A stretch of 64,000 nucleotides of DNA, from positions 62,001 through 126,000 of the forward strand of contig NZ_SZQL01000010.1 in NCBI RefSeq assembly GCF_005233845.1. Reading direction: 5' to 3'. The notes below the pieces were generated by a model, which was not told where the DNA came from, did no database searches, and was given only the letters and a program-made list of their open reading frames with translations. The position numbers and the translations under genes were made by a program. Below, in pieces: positions 2,724 to 28,982 of the stretch. This DNA comes from Ilyomonas limi. GTDB taxonomy: Bacteria > Bacteroidota > Bacteroidia > Chitinophagales > Chitinophagaceae. Each line of letters begins with the position of its first letter. Position 1 is the stretch's first letter.

Positions 2724-4145
2724 TTACCGCAACTTCAATTGCACCACATTCTCAATGTGTAATGTATGCGGAAACATATCCACCGGCTGCACGCGCGTTA
2801 CTGCATATTTTGCATCCAGCAGTGCCAGGTCGCGCGCCTGGGTAGCCGGGTTGCAGCTTACATACACAACAAGCGGTGCCGCAATATCGAGCAGTTTATT
2901 TACCAGTTTTTCGTGCATACCGGCGCGCGGCGGATCGGTAATAATCACATCAGGACGGCCATGCTCCGCAAAAAAGTCATCGTTGCATATCGTTACTACA
3001 TCGCCGGTAAAAAACTGCGCATGGTTGATATTGTTGAGTGCTGCATTTTCGCGTGCATCTGCTATGGCTTCTTCTACCATTTCTACCCCAATAATTTTTT
3101 TTGCCAAAGCACTTACAAAAATACCAATACTGCCAGTGCCGCAATATAAGTCATACACCGTTTGCGTGCCATCCAATTCTGCAAACTGGCGTGTAATAGC
3201 GTACAGTACTTCGCCCTGCAAACTATTGGTTTGAAAAAAAGATTTCGGACTAATCTTGAAATAATAGTCTTCTAACTTTTCTGTTATAAAACCCTTGCCA
3301 TGCACCACTTGCGGCTCCAGGTCGTACAAACTATCATTTTTTTTGGTATTAATGGTAAATAATAAAGTAGTGATTTGAGGAAATTGTTGTAGCAATAGTG
3401 TTTGCAATGCCTGCTGATGTTGGTTGTCTTCGTAGCCAACCACCACATTTACCATGAGTTCGCCGGTTGTTGTTGTGCGTACCTGCATTGTGCGCAGCCA
3501 GCCGTGATGCCCTTTGATGTCGTAAAAAGGCAACTGGTTATCTTTTGCATATTGTGCAATGGTTTTACGCAACGCATTGGTTGGCTCCTCCTGCAAGTGG
3601 CAAATATCAATTTCCACTACTTTATCAAACACACCTTTTGCATGGTAGCCCGCTACATCTTTGTAATGCGCACTGGCGGCTTCTTCGCGGCTCAGTTGTT
3701 TAAATTCCTCATCGGGAATATAGCGCTTGTTAGAAAAGGTATATTCCAGCTTGTTGCGATAGCGAATGGTGTGCTGGCAACCGGCAATAGACTGTATTTG
3801 GGGCAGTTGTATTTTACCAATGCGGGTAAGATTATCTACCACTTGTTGCTGCTTGTATTGCAACTGTTTTTCATAAGGCAAATGCTGCCACTGGCAGCCA
3901 CCGCATACACCAAAATGCCTGCAAAAAGGCTGTACTCTTTCGGTTGAATATTTTTTAAAATGCAGCGGAAAACCCTCAGCCCAGTCCTTTTTGTTTTTAT
4001 ACAACTGCACATCCACTACATCGCCGGGCACTACATTCTCTATAAACACAGCTTTGCCTTCCACACGGCTGATGCACTTGCCTTCTGCAGCATAATTTTC
4101 TACTAAAACGTTTGATAAAATAACAGGTTTTTGCTTATGTCTCAC
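2724..4145 (-). CDS. rlmD: 23S rRNA (uracil-C5)-methyltransferase RlmD/RumA type
   Basis: 473 aa from a GTG start at 4145; no in-frame ATG lies near the N-terminus. Order of domains: TRAM RNA-binding domain (about residues 8-65), 4Fe-4S cysteines in CRHFGVCGGC plus a later Cys in DICHLQ, then a SAM methyltransferase core with DLYCGTGSIGIF and DVIITDPPRAGM, and the catalytic Cys in VSCNPATQARDL. The enzyme makes m5U in 23S rRNA (U1939 in E. coli numbering) or is a close RumA/TrmA-type paralogue. A good promoter -10 (TACATTTG) ends 6 bases before the GTG, which implies a very short or absent leader. No partner genes are needed. Confidence 0.92.
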   Translation of the reverse strand: MRHKQKPVILSNVLVENYAAEGKCISRVEGKAVFIENVVPGDVVDVQLYKNKKDWAEGFPLHFKKYSTERVQPFCRHFGVCGGCQWQHLPYEKQLQYKQQQVVDNLTRIGKIQLPQIQSIAGCQHTIRYRNKLEYTFSNKRYIPDEEFKQLSREEAASAHYKDVAGYHAKGVFDKVVEIDICHLQEEPTNALRKTIAQYAKDNQLPFYDIKGHHGWLRTMQVRTTTTGELMVNVVVGYEDNQHQQALQTLLLQQFPQITTLLFTINTKKNDSLYDLEPQVVHGKGFITEKLEDYYFKISPKSFFQTNSLQGEVLYAITRQFAELDGTQTVYDLYCGTGSIGIFVSALAKKIIGVEMVEEAIADARENAALNNINHAQFFTGDVVTICNDDFFAEHGRPDVIITDPPRAGMHEKLVNKLLDIAAPLVVYVSCNPATQARDLALLDAKYAVTRVQPVDMFPHTLHIENVVQLKLR

Positions 4146-21652: not shown

Positions 21653-22693
21653 ATGGTTAAAATAGGAAACATACAATTGCCCGGTTTTCCACTGTTGCTG
21701 GCGCCTATGGAAGATGTGAGCGATCCGCCTTTTCGTGCCGTGTGTAAGGCTAATGGTGCCGATTTGCTCTATACCGAGTTTATCAGCAGCGAAGGTTTGA
21801 TACGTGATGCAATAAAAAGCCGGCAAAAGCTGGACATTTTTGACGCAGAACGCCCTGTGGGCATTCAAATATTTGGCGGCGATGAAGAAGCCATGGCTAT
21901 GAGTGCCCGCATTGTAGAAACCGTAAATCCCGATCTTGTAGATATAAACTTTGGCTGCCCGGTAAAAAAAGTAGTGAGTAAAGGTGCAGGCGCTGCCGTG
22001 TTGAAAGATATTGATTTAATGACGCGGCTCACCAAAGCAGTAGTAAATTCAACTAATAAGCCGGTAACGGTAAAAACCCGGCTTGGCTGGGATGAGCAAA
22101 GCATTAATATAGAAGAAGTTGCCCTCCGGTTGCAGGATTGCGGTATTCAGGCACTTTCCATACATGGGCGCACAAGGGCGCAGTTGTACAAAGGTACTGC
22201 CGACTGGCGCCTGATTGCAGCCATAAAAAACAATCCCCGCATTCACATACCTATTTTTGGTAACGGTGATATAGACAGTCCGCAAAAAGCATTGGAATAT
22301 AAGAACCGCTACGGCGTAGATGGCATTATGATTGGTCGTGCAGCTATTGGTTATCCCTGGGTTTTTAATGAAATAAAACACTACCTGCAAACCGGCGAAT
22401 TATTGCCACTACCAACCATACAGCAGCGGGTTGCGGTTATACGCAAGCATCTCCATAAATCAGTAGAATGGAAAGGAGAGGTGTTGGGCATTTTAGAAAT
22501 GCGCCGGCATTATACCAATTATTTAAAAGGTTATCCTAACATCAAAGAATACCGGACTAAACTGGTAACACTGCAATCGCTGCCGGCTATTGACGAGGTA
22601 TTGCAGGAAATAGAAAGGGTGTATGCCAATGTACCTGCATTAGCTACAAAACCAGTGGTAAATAATGAATATGCGGAGTGTTGCGGAGGATAA
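21653..22693 (+). CDS. dusB: tRNA-dihydrouridine synthase B type
   Basis: 346 aa from ATG 21653 (MVKIGNIQLP); in-frame upstream codons could start at a TTG but are not conserved-looking. FMN-binding TIM barrel with LAPMEDVSDPPFR, VGIQIFGGD, catalytic Cys in INFGCPVKKVVSKGAGAAVL, SIHGRTRAQLYKG, IPIFGNGDI and IMIGRAAIGYPW. The C-terminal helical tRNA-binding domain contains EMRRHYTNYLKGYPN. It reduces uridine to dihydrouridine in the tRNA D-loop. Monocistronic with its own terminator. Confidence 0.95.
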   Translation: MVKIGNIQLPGFPLLLAPMEDVSDPPFRAVCKANGADLLYTEFISSEGLIRDAIKSRQKLDIFDAERPVGIQIFGGDEEAMAMSARIVETVNPDLVDINFGCPVKKVVSKGAGAAVLKDIDLMTRLTKAVVNSTNKPVTVKTRLGWDEQSINIEEVALRLQDCGIQALSIHGRTRAQLYKGTADWRLIAAIKNNPRIHIPIFGNGDIDSPQKALEYKNRYGVDGIMIGRAAIGYPWVFNEIKHYLQTGELLPLPTIQQRVAVIRKHLHKSVEWKGEVLGILEMRRHYTNYLKGYPNIKEYRTKLVTLQSLPAIDEVLQEIERVYANVPALATKPVVNNEYAECCGG

Positions 22694-22718
22694 ACAAAAA
22701 GGCTTTAAGAATTTAAAT

Positions 22719-22745
22719 GGGCGCTTGCAGGCGCCCGTTTGTTTT
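22719..22745 (+). terminator. Terminator after dusB
   Basis: GGGCGC (22719-22724) pairs with GCGCCC (22731-22736), extended by flanking AAAT/GTTT, followed by TTTGTTTT. It lies 26 bases after the dusB stop. Confidence 0.8.
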
Positions 22746-22889: not shown

Positions 22890-23288
22890 TTAGTAAAGCT
22901 TTAGCTTACGGAATATGTCAGGCATTGTTTCCACATCTATCGCCTCCATATCTATAAGTTTCAACGATTTGACCATTTTAAGCGTTGTGGTTTTATATGT
23001 CTGAAAATGCGGTGTTTTTAAATGCAATTCATACGCTTCCCTGTTAGCATATATCTCCAGGATTCTTACCTGCGTTGGATTTTCCTTCTGATACATCGGA
23101 TAAATGGCAATGACACCCGGTTCTAATTTCACAGATGCCCCGGATTCCTCCTTTAGAATTGCTTTGTACTCTTCAAGATAATTTGAATCAATCTCTATTT
23201 CTGATATACGAATCATCATATTATTCTTTTGAGCATGAACACTACCGGATGATAAGAGAATCAGAACTGCAATCAGAAAATACTTCAT
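22890..23288 (-). CDS. Exported antibiotic-biosynthesis-monooxygenase (ABM) domain protein
   Basis: 132 aa with a signal peptide ending at SVHAQ. The mature part is a single ferredoxin-like ABM domain (MIRISEIEIDSNYLEEYKAILKEE, GVIAIYPMYQKENP, RILEIYANREAYELHLKTPHFQTYK). Cytosolic relatives are quinol monooxygenases or heme-degrading enzymes; the exported form is common in Bacteroidota and its substrate is unknown. The His in LHLKTPHFQTY is conserved in the family. Single gene. Confidence 0.8.
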   Translation of the reverse strand: MKYFLIAVLILLSSGSVHAQKNNMMIRISEIEIDSNYLEEYKAILKEESGASVKLEPGVIAIYPMYQKENPTQVRILEIYANREAYELHLKTPHFQTYKTTTLKMVKSLKLIDMEAIDVETMPDIFRKLKLY

Positions 23289-23375
23289 ATTATTTGATTG
23301 TAATTTTATTGCCTTAAAGATTTTTGCGCTTCATCCATAAAACGATCCACAAATCTTTGCAGCTTACGTTCGAGT

Positions 23376-23425
23376 ATTTGCGATGGCAGGGCGTTCTGCG
23401 TTCCGTCGCCCCTGCTATTGCAAAT
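23376..23425. repeat. REP-like palindrome
   Basis: The left arm 23376-23393 (ATTTGCGATGGCAGGGCG) and right arm 23407-23425 (core CGCCCCTGCTATTGCAAAT) are inverted copies with three differences, around a 13-base loop. GC content is well above the surroundings. The sequence type (GCAGGGCG...CGCCCCTGC) looks like a dispersed REP hairpin; no second copy is in the window. It lies 28 bases past the stop of the CPBP protease gene at 23453. Confidence 0.5.
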
Positions 23426-23452
23426 AGTTTTGTTGTGTGCTTGTGCTTGCCC

Positions 23453-24232
23453 TTATGCTGGAATTGCTACTTTAGTTTTTGGTCTATAAAAATAGATTAT
23501 AGCTATAGCAATTGCCATGATTAATAAGTAACTAATCCATGAATTTCTTTCTACAACGTTTTCATAACCCTTGTCAGCAATGCCATGAAAAATGCCTGAC
23601 TCTTTTTTAAAACCAAAACACCATTGTCCAAAATTCCATGCTGCATGTAATCCAAATGGCAAAGCTATTCCTTTCGCTTTTAACGCCGCAAATCCAAATA
23701 ATAATGCGCCTGTTCCTGCTCCTAAAAATGCTTGTACCCATGTCATTCCGCCCACGATGTGTTCCAATGAAAATATTACAAGAATTATAAATTGGGAAGC
23801 CCACAATCCAAAAGAATAATTTAAGCTAAACAAAGGATAACCACGAAATGCTAATTCTTCACGGATTGCTACTAAAAAATAAAGCGTGAAATAAAAGAAA
23901 ATTGGATAAGCAGAAATAGCAGGATTGAAGGACATGTTGTAATGTCCTAATAATAAAACAATAACTGGCTGAAGCAATGTCATTAATAATCCAAGTCCAA
24001 AACCAACAGCTACTTTCTTAGGAGTTCTTTTATTGGCAACTACTCCCACTTTTTTTAAAGGAAGTTTCTCCCACCTCGCAAACAATATTGTTAAACCATA
24101 CGTAATAACTATTGTGATGATAAGTAATAAATGCTGACTCCACTCCGAAAGAAAATTTTTAATCAACCCTGAAACTGTAGCAAGGACTATAGCACAAAGC
24201 AAACAAAAAAGTATAGGTTTAATAATTTTCAA
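23453..24232 (-). CDS. CPBP family intramembrane glutamic endopeptidase
   Basis: 259 aa starting with a TTG at 24232; no in-frame ATG is nearby. About eight membrane segments. Motif 1 REELAFRGYPLFSL, motif 2 His in SLEHIVGGMTW and motif 3 HAAWNFGQW are present, as in Rce1-like proteases. A basic cytosolic stretch (NKRTPKKV) separates helices 3 and 4. Unrelated in detail to the other CPBP protein at 20491 (different length and loops). No partner gene. Confidence 0.88.
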   Translation of the reverse strand: MKIIKPILFCLLCAIVLATVSGLIKNFLSEWSQHLLLIITIVITYGLTILFARWEKLPLKKVGVVANKRTPKKVAVGFGLGLLMTLLQPVIVLLLGHYNMSFNPAISAYPIFFYFTLYFLVAIREELAFRGYPLFSLNYSFGLWASQFIILVIFSLEHIVGGMTWVQAFLGAGTGALLFGFAALKAKGIALPFGLHAAWNFGQWCFGFKKESGIFHGIADKGYENVVERNSWISYLLIMAIAIAIIYFYRPKTKVAIPA

Positions 24233-24433
24233 TATTGGATTTTCAATTTTATAAAGTTCTCACGAAGTCTGTCAGCATAGCACACAATAGTATTATTTTC
24301 CGCTGCCAGCAAATTCCTCATTGTCTAAAATCTGTTGTTTACTTTATACTTATTTATTAAACAATGTATTCAGCAGATAGCTGCAAAAAGGTTACTGTAT
24401 CCAACTTCTCCTTTAAGATTTTTCACAAAACAT

Positions 24434-24655
24434 TCAAACAATATCATACGTTTCTTCAAATATGTCCTTGGCACATGGATACATTTCGCCTTTAATCCCA
24501 ACCATTAAATAATCGCCGGCTTTACCTTCCAGTGTTCCTTCGAGGGTTTCTACTTTAAAAGGTTCATTTATTTGTACGCACCGGACAGGAATAGGTTTCT
24601 TAACAGCTTGCTTAAACTCAAACTCCGGGATCTCACCACTCTTAAAAATTTTCAT
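24434..24655 (-). CDS. PGDYG-domain small protein
   Basis: 73 aa, soluble. The C-terminal half (EGKAGDYLMVGIKGEMYPCAKDIFEETYDI) fits the PGDYG domain, a short beta-rich module found in bacteria and phages, and the N-terminal FEFKQAVKKPIPVRCVQI is its usual lead-in strand. Function of the domain is unknown. Isolated small gene between the CPBP protease and the LytTR regulator. Confidence 0.7.
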   Translation of the reverse strand: MKIFKSGEIPEFEFKQAVKKPIPVRCVQINEPFKVETLEGTLEGKAGDYLMVGIKGEMYPCAKDIFEETYDIV

Positions 24656-24721
24656 TCTTATTTATTTAATTACTTACTTCTTGCCTGATGATGTGCTTTC
24701 TATATAAACATCTAATTCTAT

Positions 24722-25429
24722 CTACCCTGCACTAATCACAGATGTTCTTTTTTGCAAAATATCCTGTACCTGCTTTTGGTAAGTATAGCTTACGGGGATG
24801 GTCTTATCATCGAGTGTAATGGAGTTTTTATTCCAACTGGTAATACGGTCAAGTGGTACAATATACGAGCGGTGCACACGGATAAACATAGGTGAAGGCA
24901 GCTTTTCCGAAACTACTTTCATACTCATGTGTATGAGATAGGATTTGCCGGGTGTTACAATTTTTATATAATCGTCCAATGCTTCTACCAGTTCTATTTC
25001 TTTAAAGAAAACCTTGCACCACTGATAATTGTATTTTACAAATAAATACCCGTCGTTTACCTCTTTACTCTGCCGGTATTCAATGAGTTCTTTTGCCTTC
25101 ATAACGGCTCTGGCAAACCGCTCATAGTCATAAGGTTTTACCAAATAATCCACTGCATCCAGGTCAAAACCCTGGGCAGCGTAGTTGCTGTAAGCCGTGG
25201 TAAAAACAACCGGCGGTTTATTGGCCAAATTGGTATAAAACTGCATACCGTTTATATCCGGCATTTGTATGTCGAGAAACAGCAGATCCACTCCATTGTT
25301 GTTGATGTATTCTTCGGCACTCACAGGGTCGGTAAAAGTGTTTACCAGCTCCATTCCTTCGGTTTGTTGTATATAATTTTCAAGCAACTGCAAGGCAAGT
25401 GGCTCATCGTCTAAGGCAATACATTTCAT
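24722..25429 (-). CDS. LytTR-family response regulator
   Basis: 235 aa. Receiver domain (1-120) with acidic pair DDE (7-9), phospho-acceptor Asp53 in LLFLDIQMPD, Thr in VFTTAYS and Lys in YLVKPYDYERF. A LytTR DNA-binding domain follows (about 135-228: FFKEIELVEALDDYIKIV, FIRVHRSYIVPLDRI). It begins 2 bases after the histidine-kinase stop, so the two are translated from one mRNA. LytTR regulators bind paired direct repeats; candidate repeats lie upstream of the kinase. Confidence 0.93.
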   Translation of the reverse strand: MKCIALDDEPLALQLLENYIQQTEGMELVNTFTDPVSAEEYINNNGVDLLFLDIQMPDINGMQFYTNLANKPPVVFTTAYSNYAAQGFDLDAVDYLVKPYDYERFARAVMKAKELIEYRQSKEVNDGYLFVKYNYQWCKVFFKEIELVEALDDYIKIVTPGKSYLIHMSMKVVSEKLPSPMFIRVHRSYIVPLDRITSWNKNSITLDDKTIPVSYTYQKQVQDILQKRTSVISAG

Positions 25430-25431
25430 AC

Positions 25432-26493
25432 TTAATTAAGATTGATGGTTAGCGATACTTTGTACAGGTGTTCTTCGGTTGTGATCTTTAGTTCGTGCTT
25501 TTTGTAATAGAGCAATTCCAGCCGCCGCTTCGTATTGTTTATACCGGTGCCGGTACCTTCTGCCTTGCTTTTTCCATTTGCCTGCAAATGATTTTCGCAC
25601 GTAAAGGTGATTGCCTGTGGGCTCACATCCACCATTGCTTTAATGGAAGAAGGGCGGTGGGTACTGGTGCCGTATTTAAAAGCGTTTTCAATAAACGGAA
25701 TAAACACAAAAGGCGCTATGCGTGCACTGCTGATATTGCCCGTAATAGTAAAACAAACCGCATTATTATTGGTTATCCGCAACTTTTGCAGCTCGATGTA
25801 GCTGTTGATAAAATCAATCTCCTGTTGCAGGGCTACATCATTTCCCTGGCAGTCTTCAAGCGTGTAGCGCATAATGCGCGAGAGCTTCATCACCGCATCC
25901 GCTGTTTTTTGATTATTGGCAATGGCCAGTGAATAAATGCTATTGAGGGTATTGAACAAAAAGTGCGGATTCACCTGCGTTTTTAAGAGGCTCAATTCGG
26001 TTTGCAACTGCTGCTTCGATATTTCTTCTTTTATTTCCTCGGCGGTAAACCATTGTGTTATGACTTTAATGCCGGTACTTACCAAAAAAGCAATTAAAAA
26101 TAGGGTAACGGCTCCGCCCGAAAAAAAGTAAGGTCCTTTATAATTAATACTTCTGCCTGCAACAGATTGTGCAAACGTCTTTGTCTCCTCCGAGGTAACC
26201 ATGATGGCATACATTACCGAGAGGTAAAGGAAAAAGCAAAGGAATATACTTGCAATGTATTGCGCTATTTTTTTTACCGCCAGCAATTTGGGTATAAATA
26301 CTTTGCTGTTGAGATAATAAAAACAAACAAGCAGCAGATTAGAAGCGATAAACATGGTTATGAATCGCTGGCTTGCAAATGGCGACCTTGTTTTGTCGTA
26401 ATAGAAAAACTGAAACGGAAGCATGAAAAAGCACAGCCATGCGGCAACTACAATGCTTACCTGTAAAACGATATTTTTTTCTTTTGGTGGCAC
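25432..26493 (-). CDS. LytS/YehU-type sensor histidine kinase
   Basis: 353 aa from GTG 26493 (VPPKEKNIVLQ); the frame stays open upstream to 26544 but only from a TTG, and the first ATG falls inside helix 1. Four membrane segments occupy residues about 10-170, without a large extracellular domain. The His_kinase domain has LKTQVNPHFLFNTLNSIYSLA (phospho-His), and the ATPase part has FIENAFKYG (N box) and GTGTGINNTKRRLELLY (G box). It phosphorylates the LytTR regulator encoded downstream. The signal is unknown. Confidence 0.9.
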   Translation of the reverse strand: MPPKEKNIVLQVSIVVAAWLCFFMLPFQFFYYDKTRSPFASQRFITMFIASNLLLVCFYYLNSKVFIPKLLAVKKIAQYIASIFLCFFLYLSVMYAIMVTSEETKTFAQSVAGRSINYKGPYFFSGGAVTLFLIAFLVSTGIKVITQWFTAEEIKEEISKQQLQTELSLLKTQVNPHFLFNTLNSIYSLAIANNQKTADAVMKLSRIMRYTLEDCQGNDVALQQEIDFINSYIELQKLRITNNNAVCFTITGNISSARIAPFVFIPFIENAFKYGTSTHRPSSIKAMVDVSPQAITFTCENHLQANGKSKAEGTGTGINNTKRRLELLYYKKHELKITTEEHLYKVSLTINLN

Positions 26494-26511
26494 AACTAAC
26501 GAATAAGGTAA

Positions 26512-26562
26512 GAAATATAGTACAACTTTATTTTGAAGGTACAATTTTTAGACAATTTGTAC
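26512..26562 (-). promoter_or_regulatory. Candidate promoter and LytTR-type operator of the two-component operon
   Basis: On the minus strand, TTGTAC ends two near-identical decamers (AAAATTGTAC and ATAAAGTTGTAC region) 19 bases apart (26544-26539 and 26525-26520), and a third copy lies inverted at 26562-26557. TATATTTC (26519-26512), 7 of 8 with TAnnTTTG, follows directly as a -10. Paired repeats fit LytTR regulator binding (family knowledge). No experiment supports it. Confidence 0.35.
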
Positions 26563-26573
26563 TATTTCATCGG

Positions 26574-27389
26574 TTAATACGATTCCTGTTCGTTAGGGAA
26601 ATCTTCGTGTTTTATATCAATAATATATTGCTGCACGGCATTGGTTATTTGTTCCTGCAGGTTAAGGTATTGCCGTAAAAAACGCGGTCTGAATTCGGTG
26701 TTGATGCCCAGCATATCGTGCATTACCAGCACTTGCCCGTCGCAATATTTGCCGGCACCAATGCCTATGGTTGGGATGTGCAGGCTTGCAGTTACTTCTT
26801 TTGCAAGTGTAGCCGGAATTTTCTCCAGTACTACTGCAAAGCAGCCTGCTTCCTGTATCAACAGTGCATCCCGCTTTAGTTTGTTAGCTTCGGCTTCGTG
26901 CTTTGCACGCACATTGTAGGTGCCAAATTTATAAATACTTTGTGGCGTCAGTCCCAGGTGCGCCATTACCGGTATGCCTGCCGATACAATGTTTTTAATG
27001 CTTTCCAGCACTTCTTCGCCACCTTCGAGCTTTATTGCATGAGCACCCGTTTCTTTCATAATGCGGATGGAGGAAGCCAGCGCAATCTGCGGGTTACTTT
27101 GATAAGATCCAAACGGCAAATCCACTACAACCAGCGAACGTTTAACAGCACGTATTACCGATGACGCATGGTAAATCATTTGGTCGAGCGTAATAGGCAA
27201 TGTGGTTTCATGGCCTGCCATCACATTTGAGGCGCTGTCGCCCACGAGTATCACATCTATGCCTGCATTATCAAACAGTTGGGCAAAAGAAAAATCGTAA
27301 GCCGTAAGCATCGAAATTTTTTCGCCATTATCCTTCATTTTTTGCAGCGTGTGCGTAGTAATCTTGCGTATTTCTTTTGATACAGACAT
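26574..27389 (-). CDS. panB: 3-methyl-2-oxobutanoate hydroxymethyltransferase
   Basis: 271 aa from ATG 27389 ([12 protein letters not shown]), the usual length. KetoPantoate synthase motifs: [26 protein letters not shown] (Mg/substrate Asp), [28 protein letters not shown] and catalytic Glu in VVLEKIP, then [21 protein letters not shown]. It transfers a hydroxymethyl group from methylene-THF to 2-oxoisovalerate in pantothenate and CoA synthesis. No other pan gene is nearby. It lies just upstream of the two-component operon on the same strand but that operon appears to have its own promoter. Confidence 0.96.
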
Positions 27390-27653
27390 AGTGTAGTTTA
27401 AATAAAAGCACAAAACTATATAAGAAATCTTTCAATAACAGCTTTAAAACTTTCAATAACAGATCAGGTTGAAAACTATCAATAGCATATTGTACTGATA
27501 AAATACAAACTTTCATGTTCATAAAGCAAACTGATGTGAACTGATGTTTAAAAATTGCACCGGTTGTTTTTTTAAGAATATTTCGGCAGCATACGTTGCG
27601 TTAGTATCGTTTTTAAAAAGAAGGCATTTTTGAAAAGTAGAAATTAATGAAAA

Positions 27654-27689
27654 GAAAAAAATCCTCTCAGCATGGAGAGGATTTTTTTC
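27654..27689 (-). terminator. Terminator of the 52-aa basic protein gene
   Basis: GAAAAAAATCCTCTC (27654-27668) and GAGAGGATTTTTTTC (27675-27689) are exact reverse complements with a 6-base loop. The hairpin starts 7 bases after the TGA of the small gene on the minus strand and is followed by TTTTCATT. It is symmetric and could act in both directions. Confidence 0.8.
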
Positions 27690-27695
27690 TTGCAA

Positions 27696-27854
27696 TCAAC
27701 TGCCTCTGCTGCCGCCGGTTTTTACCGGCTTCTTTGCAGCACCGGCCGATTTACTTGCCGGTTTGGTAATAAACTTAGAGCTGCCGCCAGCACCATTTTT
27801 AGGCGCTTTGCCACCTTTGCTGTTACTGTTTTTGTTGTTGGTAGGTAAAGACAT
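27696..27854 (-). CDS. 52-aa basic Gly/Ser/Lys-rich small protein
   Basis: ATG at 27854 to TGA at 27696, 52 residues: MSLPTNNKNSNSKGGKAPKN then a GAGGSSKFITKPASKSAGAA stretch and a PVKTGGSRGS end. It has 11 Lys/Arg, no acidic residue and no hydrophobic core, so it is probably disordered and nucleic-acid or ribosome binding (inference). The GC content is markedly higher than the flanking DNA, the stop is followed within 7 bases by a textbook terminator, and codon positions look coding. I recall similar short proteins in Chitinophagaceae but cannot name a family. Confidence 0.65.
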   Translation of the reverse strand: MSLPTNNKNSNSKGGKAPKNGAGGSSKFITKPASKSAGAAKKPVKTGGSRGS

Positions 27855-28292
27855 AATGCGTTGGTTTTAAGAAAAATGAAGTTAGTGTTTTACGGCATTG
27901 CAGTAAAAAGATAATTGTTAATGCTTGTTATAAACAAGGGCAAATTTCATTGGGAGTAAGCAACCAATTGTTTATTCATACGTATATTCTGTTAATAATG
28001 TTTAAAATTAAATATTGGGAAAAATTATAACCTTAATAATTAAGATTGGGTAGTTTTTGTGAAGAGTGAGAAACAAAGCGCGTATGCAATTTTGTAAAAT
28101 TTTCGAAAGTCAGGTTGTAAAAATCTGACACAGGCTAAGGGGAAAGTAGGTTTCAAAACAACCTATCAGGCAGCTTAATTCTTTAAGCTGCCTTTTTAGT
28201 GTAAGAGATTAACGATTGTTTCATTTATTGTTTTTGCAAATAAAATGTTTTTATTTTTAACCTCTATTTTTCTGCATACAAAACTGCTTTTT
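27855..28292. other. 438-base intergenic region without a protein gene
   Basis: AT-rich. The first ~200 bases must hold the divergent promoter of the 52-aa gene and show nothing else clear. The last ~100 bases contain three hairpins ending in a plus-strand terminator (see the ncRNA entry). The longest plus-strand reading frames here are under 15 codons. Confidence 0.6.
28105..28198 (+). ncRNA. Candidate small RNA with 3' intrinsic terminator
   Basis: Three successive hairpins can form: GTCAG/CTGAC (28109-28113 with 28125-28129), AGGTTT/AACCT (28148-28153 with 28160-28164) and AGGCAGCTTAA (28168-28178) with TTAAGCTGCCT (28183-28193), the last followed by TTTTTAG. The terminator only has a T tract on the plus strand. 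No plus-strand gene lies within 1.7 kb upstream, so it most likely ends a non-coding transcript. The 5' end is uncertain and may lie further left. It matches no RNA family I can name. Confidence 0.35.
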
Positions 28293-28982
28293 ATGAATCG
28301 TATAGACCGGCTTTTTGGTATTCTCCTTTTTTTACAAAGTAAAAAGTACGTCTCTGCCGAGAAGATTGCCGATAAATTCAATATCAGTATTCGCACGGTG
28401 TACCGCGATATTAAAGCGCTTTGCGAGCAGGGGGTGCCGGTAAATTTTGAGCAGCATAAAGGGTATTGTATAATGCAGGGGTATTTTTTATCACCTGTTT
28501 CTTTTAGTTCCGAAGAAGCAAATGCTTTATTGCTGATGGAACGGCTCGTAGCAGGCTTTGCCGACCAGTCTATACAAACACATTATTCCAATGCATTGAA
28601 TAAAATAAAAGCGATACTACGCCATCAGCAAAAAGAAAAGCTGGAATGGCTGGAATCCAACATCAGGATGCAACTGCCTTCATGTATCAATAATAATTAC
28701 CAATATCTTTCCCTTCTGCAACAGGCTATAACCCTCCAAAAAATAGTGCACATAGAATATGAGAACAGCAATAAAGTGGTGAGCAGCCGGCGAATAGAAC
28801 CTATAGGTTTAATATTTTATGCATTTAGCTGGCACGTGATAGCCTGGTGTCATTTGCGCGAGGCGTACCGCGATTTTAAACTCTCGCGTATTGTAAAAAT
28901 GCATTGCTTAGAAATTGCTTTTACGAAGCCTGCACATATTTCCCTGGATGAATACATGCAGTTGTTGCCGGTAGATTATTAA
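28293..28982 (+). CDS. HTH/WYL-domain transcriptional regulator (YafY-like)
   Basis: 229 aa from ATG 28293 (MNRIDRLFGILLFLQS); upstream in-frame codons are AT-rich and unlike the family. N-terminal HTH_11 (KYVSAEKIADKFNISIRTVYRDIKALCEQGVPV), then a WYL sensory domain (residues about 130-210, IVHIEYENSNKVVSSRRIEPIGLIFYAFSWHVIAWCHLREAYRDFKLSRI). WYL regulators bind small ligands or nucleic acid. The DinB gene 90 bases downstream on the same strand is the common partner of such YafY-type regulators and may be its target. Confidence 0.9.
   Translation: MNRIDRLFGILLFLQSKKYVSAEKIADKFNISIRTVYRDIKALCEQGVPVNFEQHKGYCIMQGYFLSPVSFSSEEANALLLMERLVAGFADQSIQTHYSNALNKIKAILRHQQKEKLEWLESNIRMQLPSCINNNYQYLSLLQQAITLQKIVHIEYENSNKVVSSRRIEPIGLIFYAFSWHVIAWCHLREAYRDFKLSRIVKMHCLEIAFTKPAHISLDEYMQLLPVDY

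Follow-up and report, generated by a model that had tools for sequence, protein, structure and literature searches.

A plus-strand terminator assignable to no protein gene suggests a lineage-restricted small RNA candidate in Ilyomonas limi

The window, the whole 64,000-nt stretch of Ilyomonas limi DNA that was analyzed, contains a 438-bp divergent gap (27855-28292) between a block of minus-strand genes and a plus-strand gene for a WYL-domain regulator (Table 1). A preliminary description of this DNA had named a divergent small gene and the WYL regulator as the flanks of the gap, with no plus-strand gene close upstream. Both statements hold: all plausible genes from 22890 to 27854 are on the minus strand, and the closest plausible plus-strand gene upstream, which ends at 22693, is followed by a terminator of its own (22714-22741). 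We could also confirm that the gap carries a strong terminator oriented for plus-strand transcription only, and that two further hairpins lie 5' of it. The terminator reads AGGCAGCTTAA TTCT TTAAGCTGCCT, then TTTTTAG; 5 of its 11 pairs are G-C and the loop is 4 nt long. In the minus-strand reading, GATAGGTTG comes after the stem, and there is no T-run. About 100 nt separate the end of the terminator from the start codon of the WYL gene.

Table 1. Features in and beside the divergent gap, with positions in the window
Feature	Position	Strand	Description
Small gene	27696-27854	minus	52 aa (52 codons), basic, divergent from the WYL gene
Possible -7 elements	28041-28059	plus	TAAGATTG at 28041 and TAGTTTTT at 28051; each differs from TAnnTTTG at one position; weak
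14-codon ATG frame	28084-28128	plus	MQFCKIFESQVVKI; overlaps H1; putative, read by eye
Hairpin H1	28109-28129	plus	GTCAGGTT-GTAAA-AATCTGAC; 8 bp, loop 5; moderately unusual
Purine-rich linker	28130-28145	plus	ACAGGCTAAGGGGAAA; unpaired in the predicted fold; possible pairing role
Hairpin H2	28146-28166	plus	GTAGGTT-TCAAAAC-AACCTAT; 7 bp, loop 7
Intrinsic terminator	28168-28197	plus	perfect 11-bp hairpin (28168-28193) and T-run
HTH and WYL-domain regulator	28293-28982	plus	229 aa; PF13280 (WYL) 2.5e-18, PF08279 (HTH_11) 7.7e-16

On the minus-strand side, panB (PF02548, 2.6e-116) lies beyond the 52-aa gene, and a bidirectional terminator (AAAAAATCCTCTC...GAGAGGATTTTTT, 27656-27687) stands behind this 52-aa gene. 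The 52-aa gene is present in 32 of 147 family genomes, I. limi included, and its product has no Pfam match. The protein is of low complexity and ends in K(P/I)(V/I)KTGG(S/T)RGS (homologues at loci L013-L042). At another locus, L010, a frame that by eye resembles this gene immediately precedes the WYL gene and shares its strand. We asked whether the plus-strand terminator is tied to the 52-aa gene, using the 21 of 30 loci, our own included, that carry the exact motif and dropping the 9 that do not; a divergent-strand terminator call within 500 nt was found at 2 of the 20 other loci (L018 and L021) and at none of the remaining 18, and this link was rejected. No tRNA or tmRNA was found anywhere in the window.

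How unusual is a terminator in such a position? In 324,628 bases of the I. limi genome there were 72 strong terminator calls (61 + 11), which we sorted with a crude ORF-based gene set with an 80-aa cut-off, on which the classes therefore rest: 33 (29 + 4) come immediately after a gene on the same strand, 26 (19 + 7) fall within ORFs of that set, 3 follow a same-strand gene at a distance, 6 have, upstream and on the tail side, a gene of the opposite strand, and 4 are in divergent gaps that offer no upstream gene on their own strand. The two strands of 27656-27687 account for two of these 4; they are explained by the 52-aa gene, itself below the cut-off. That leaves the 28168-28193 site and one at position 169559 of contig C2. 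The latter (C2:169559-169581, plus strand; 3559-3581 of locus L084) is the sole other unexplained divergent-gap terminator in these bases. The terminator under study can be assigned to no protein gene, one of the features expected of a free-standing sRNA.

RNAfold gave three local hairpins for 28080-28198 (-33.7 kcal/mol, z -3.71) and -46.9 kcal/mol (z -4.03) for 28030-28198, and in neither case did any of 200 shuffles fold as well. When the terminator was left out (28060-28167), z was -1.79 and 7 of 200 shuffles did as well; much of the predicted fold strength of the whole unit is due to the terminator. Of 1000 shuffles of the 65 nt comprising H1, linker and H2, 3 folded as well, as did 300 of 3238 65-mers taken from real intergenic DNA of the same genome, a set drawn from both strands and including some that will contain terminators. 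H1 and H2, which on this modeling are only moderately unusual, are suggestive rather than decisive.

The promoter evidence is neutral. In the part of PMC7366714 considered here, the Bacteroidota consensus is given as TAnnTTTG near -7 and TTTG near -33. One-mismatch -7 elements occur twice on the plus strand of 27855-28105, against about 1.5 expected per 250 nt of one strand (an expectation derived from the 746 such elements on both strands of the window), so this motif is at its background rate. Further promoter-like elements, at 28252 and 28265, lie 3' of the terminator and, judged by their sequence, could drive the WYL gene by themselves.

We then looked for relatives of the candidate. The preliminary description had asked for a comparison with known RNA families. 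Run against Rfam 15, this yielded no family at the gathering cut-off in the whole window, and the five matches from a permissive scan (27850-28300, with E as high as 10) all scored far under the cut-offs, none being credible. The region of the C2:169559 terminator (L083, L084) also had no Rfam match. A search for 6S-Flavo found no match in the I. limi genome and was uninformative, since the control genomes were equally without one. By blastn, 28000-28230 matched only itself at E<=0.001 among 99 relatives, a set that held no second genome of the genus. With 28050-28200, 95 of 394 family genomes, I. limi included, had matches at E<=0.1; the non-self matches listed were fragments of 17-43 nt spread across the query, with the terminator accounting for a good share.

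The best of these fragments (34 nt, 88%, E 1.9e-5) falls in what looks like a transposase gene of the IS200 type, and we considered whether the stretch might be a transposase relic. This idea was rejected. Only 1 of 35 reading frames overlapping matches (L113 and further loci fetched) was related to an IS200-type transposase, namely that gene itself; the five Y1_Tnp loci of the I. limi genome had no match to the 34-nt stretch; and a 17-nt, 88% match that two Y1_Tnp loci share with H2 (E 0.72) is at chance level. As to a mobile origin more generally, neither plasmids nor phages gave a match, and viral contigs contained no exact 22-mer match.

Covariance models extended the search. Model R1, with all three hairpins, matched 35 of 244 family genomes at E<=1, I. 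limi included, scoring 125.3 bits on itself and at best 38.5 bits elsewhere. Inspection covered 15 of its 29 non-self loci, leaving out L059-L072: in a scripted check, all 14 loci examined come after a reading frame on the same strand whose end is no more than 250 nt away, as a gene terminator would, and the fifteenth, L047, consists of terminator hairpins repeated in tandem. In this array (1-960 of L047; genome G114, contig C2) the units have a spacing of about 131 bp, and every unit contains a hairpin closely resembling CAGACAGCGTAATTCTTTACGCTGTCTTTAAA. Model R2, without the terminator, matched 104 of 394 genomes at E<=1, with 101.4 bits for itself and 32.3 bits for the best non-self locus (L093), whose protein we take to be RodA/FtsW-like. 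Six of the 8 R2 loci inspected lie inside reading frames of at least 80 aa; the other two (L094 and L096) differ from each other and from the window outside the model match. Each model was built on one sequence, the large scans used stricter filters and inspection took in part of the weak matches, so a diverged homologue could be missed. These searches found no convincing homologue: the non-self matches inspected are coding-gene terminators, in-frame stretches or unrelated intergenic DNA.

Taken together, these data lead us to favor, with a probability of roughly 55%, an independently transcribed intergenic sRNA of about 95-140 nt. Transcription would start at a weak house-keeping-type promoter, somewhere from about 28050 to 28105, and would end near 28195, where the intrinsic terminator lies. 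Such an RNA would combine three local hairpins with a linker that is purine-rich and single-stranded (ACAGGCUAAGGGGAAA); the linker may base-pair with target mRNAs, and the terminator hairpin and U-tail would shield the 3' end. In favor of this sRNA are a strong, plus-only terminator in a divergent gap, which is rare in the genome (4 of 72 calls, 2 of them otherwise explained); the three local hairpins, with their z scores; and the precedent of terminator-bearing intergenic sRNAs, many of them strain-specific, that the sections of PMC7366714 used here describe in B. thetaiotaomicron. Against it count the background rate of the promoter motif, the only moderately unusual H1 and H2, a linker with no target beyond shuffles, and the lack of any homologue found, and hence of any sign of selection. 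The preliminary description had implied an unannotated non-coding transcript at this place; its anatomical basis (one-way terminator, hairpins, gene layout) is sound, and the transcript itself is a plausible reading of that anatomy. As for targets, 25 of 200 shuffled linkers reached the best duplex energy obtained against 264 start regions (from crude ORF calls, about 5.5% of the genome), and none stood out beyond the shuffles.

The serious, main rival is that there is no dedicated small RNA, and that the terminator makes no stable RNA of its own. It might be an insulator, stopping stray plus-strand transcription, such as that running antisense to the minus-strand genes, before it reaches the WYL gene, or a relic of a lost gene. 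The background-level promoter signal and the absence of anything conserved by blastn, R1 or R2 fit this explanation, as does the fact that H1 and H2 are within the range of real intergenic DNA and that coding genes in the family are commonly followed by terminator hairpins of a similar kind. It accounts less well for three adjacent hairpins that fold better than shuffles; moreover, no coding-gene remnant was recognised, the sole transposase-like match having been traced to chance. On balance we consider the insulator or relic unlikely, though a good deal less so than the explanations that follow.

Transcription attenuators and riboswitch leaders also place hairpins and then a terminator ahead of a same-strand gene, and the candidate shares this layout, its terminator lying about 100 nt ahead of the WYL gene. 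The element might be the 5' leader of the WYL regulator, ending transcription early under some condition, and the putative 14-codon frame overlapping H1 would suit such a leader. However, no competing (antiterminator) pairing appears in the predicted folds (28080-28198, 28030-28198 and 28060-28167), Rfam offers no riboswitch, and the promoter-like elements for the WYL gene stand after the terminator. Nor is the arrangement conserved: none of 11 WYL homologues (49-66% identical; 6 labeled Chitinophagaceae) has a comparable leader in the upstream DNA scanned, which extended to 500 nt at most and to 311 nt at L005, and no R1 counterpart was found at these loci. Terminator calls did occur upstream of 2 of the 11, in neither case comparably; at L010 a 13-bp hairpin lies at -258, separated from WYL by another small gene, and at L012 a 7-bp stem lies at -274 from WYL. 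With no equivalent before the homologues and no antiterminator in the predicted folds, this leader is improbable and ranks third, and the same 11 homologues speak for the sRNA over it. Least probable of all, in our judgment, is a recently born, lineage-restricted sRNA that is either dual-function, with the 14-codon peptide encoded over H1, or a conditional leader controlling WYL through early termination.

The independently transcribed sRNA that we prefer has ample company. According to the portions of PMC7366714 used here, B. thetaiotaomicron has 49 high-confidence intergenic sRNAs with terminators, 22 conserved in at least 2 genera and 27 strain-specific; Northern blots validated 9 of 11 tested candidates, 8 of those 9 having both a start site and a terminator. 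Like these RNAs (GibS, for example), as far as they are described there, the candidate is free-standing between genes, ends at an intrinsic terminator, combines local hairpins with a single-stranded stretch and is narrowly distributed; it differs in being known from sequence alone, and was compared with them by sequence through Rfam only. Most likely, then, the candidate is an ordinary, lineage-restricted intergenic sRNA, found in one bacterium so far, and a species-restricted sRNA of this type is an ordinary member of a common, known kind. If transcribed, it would add one more lineage-restricted candidate in a part of the Bacteroidota where, among the matches listed in the literature searched, we found no sRNA study of Chitinophagaceae. 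It would leave the general picture unchanged; an orphan terminator in a divergent gap is nevertheless a cheap means of nominating sRNA genes.

Finally, a palindrome at C12:379056-379146 of the I. limi genome (G000) shares GTCAGGTTG...CTGACA with the candidate (26.5 bits). Only 2 such palindromes exist genome-wide, so this is not a repeat family; we judged the resemblance to be chance. It is long and perfect (AACCTGTCAGGTTG-AAA-CAACCTGACAGGTT; 1557-1590 of locus L073, near 379060) and lies between two minus-strand reading frames.
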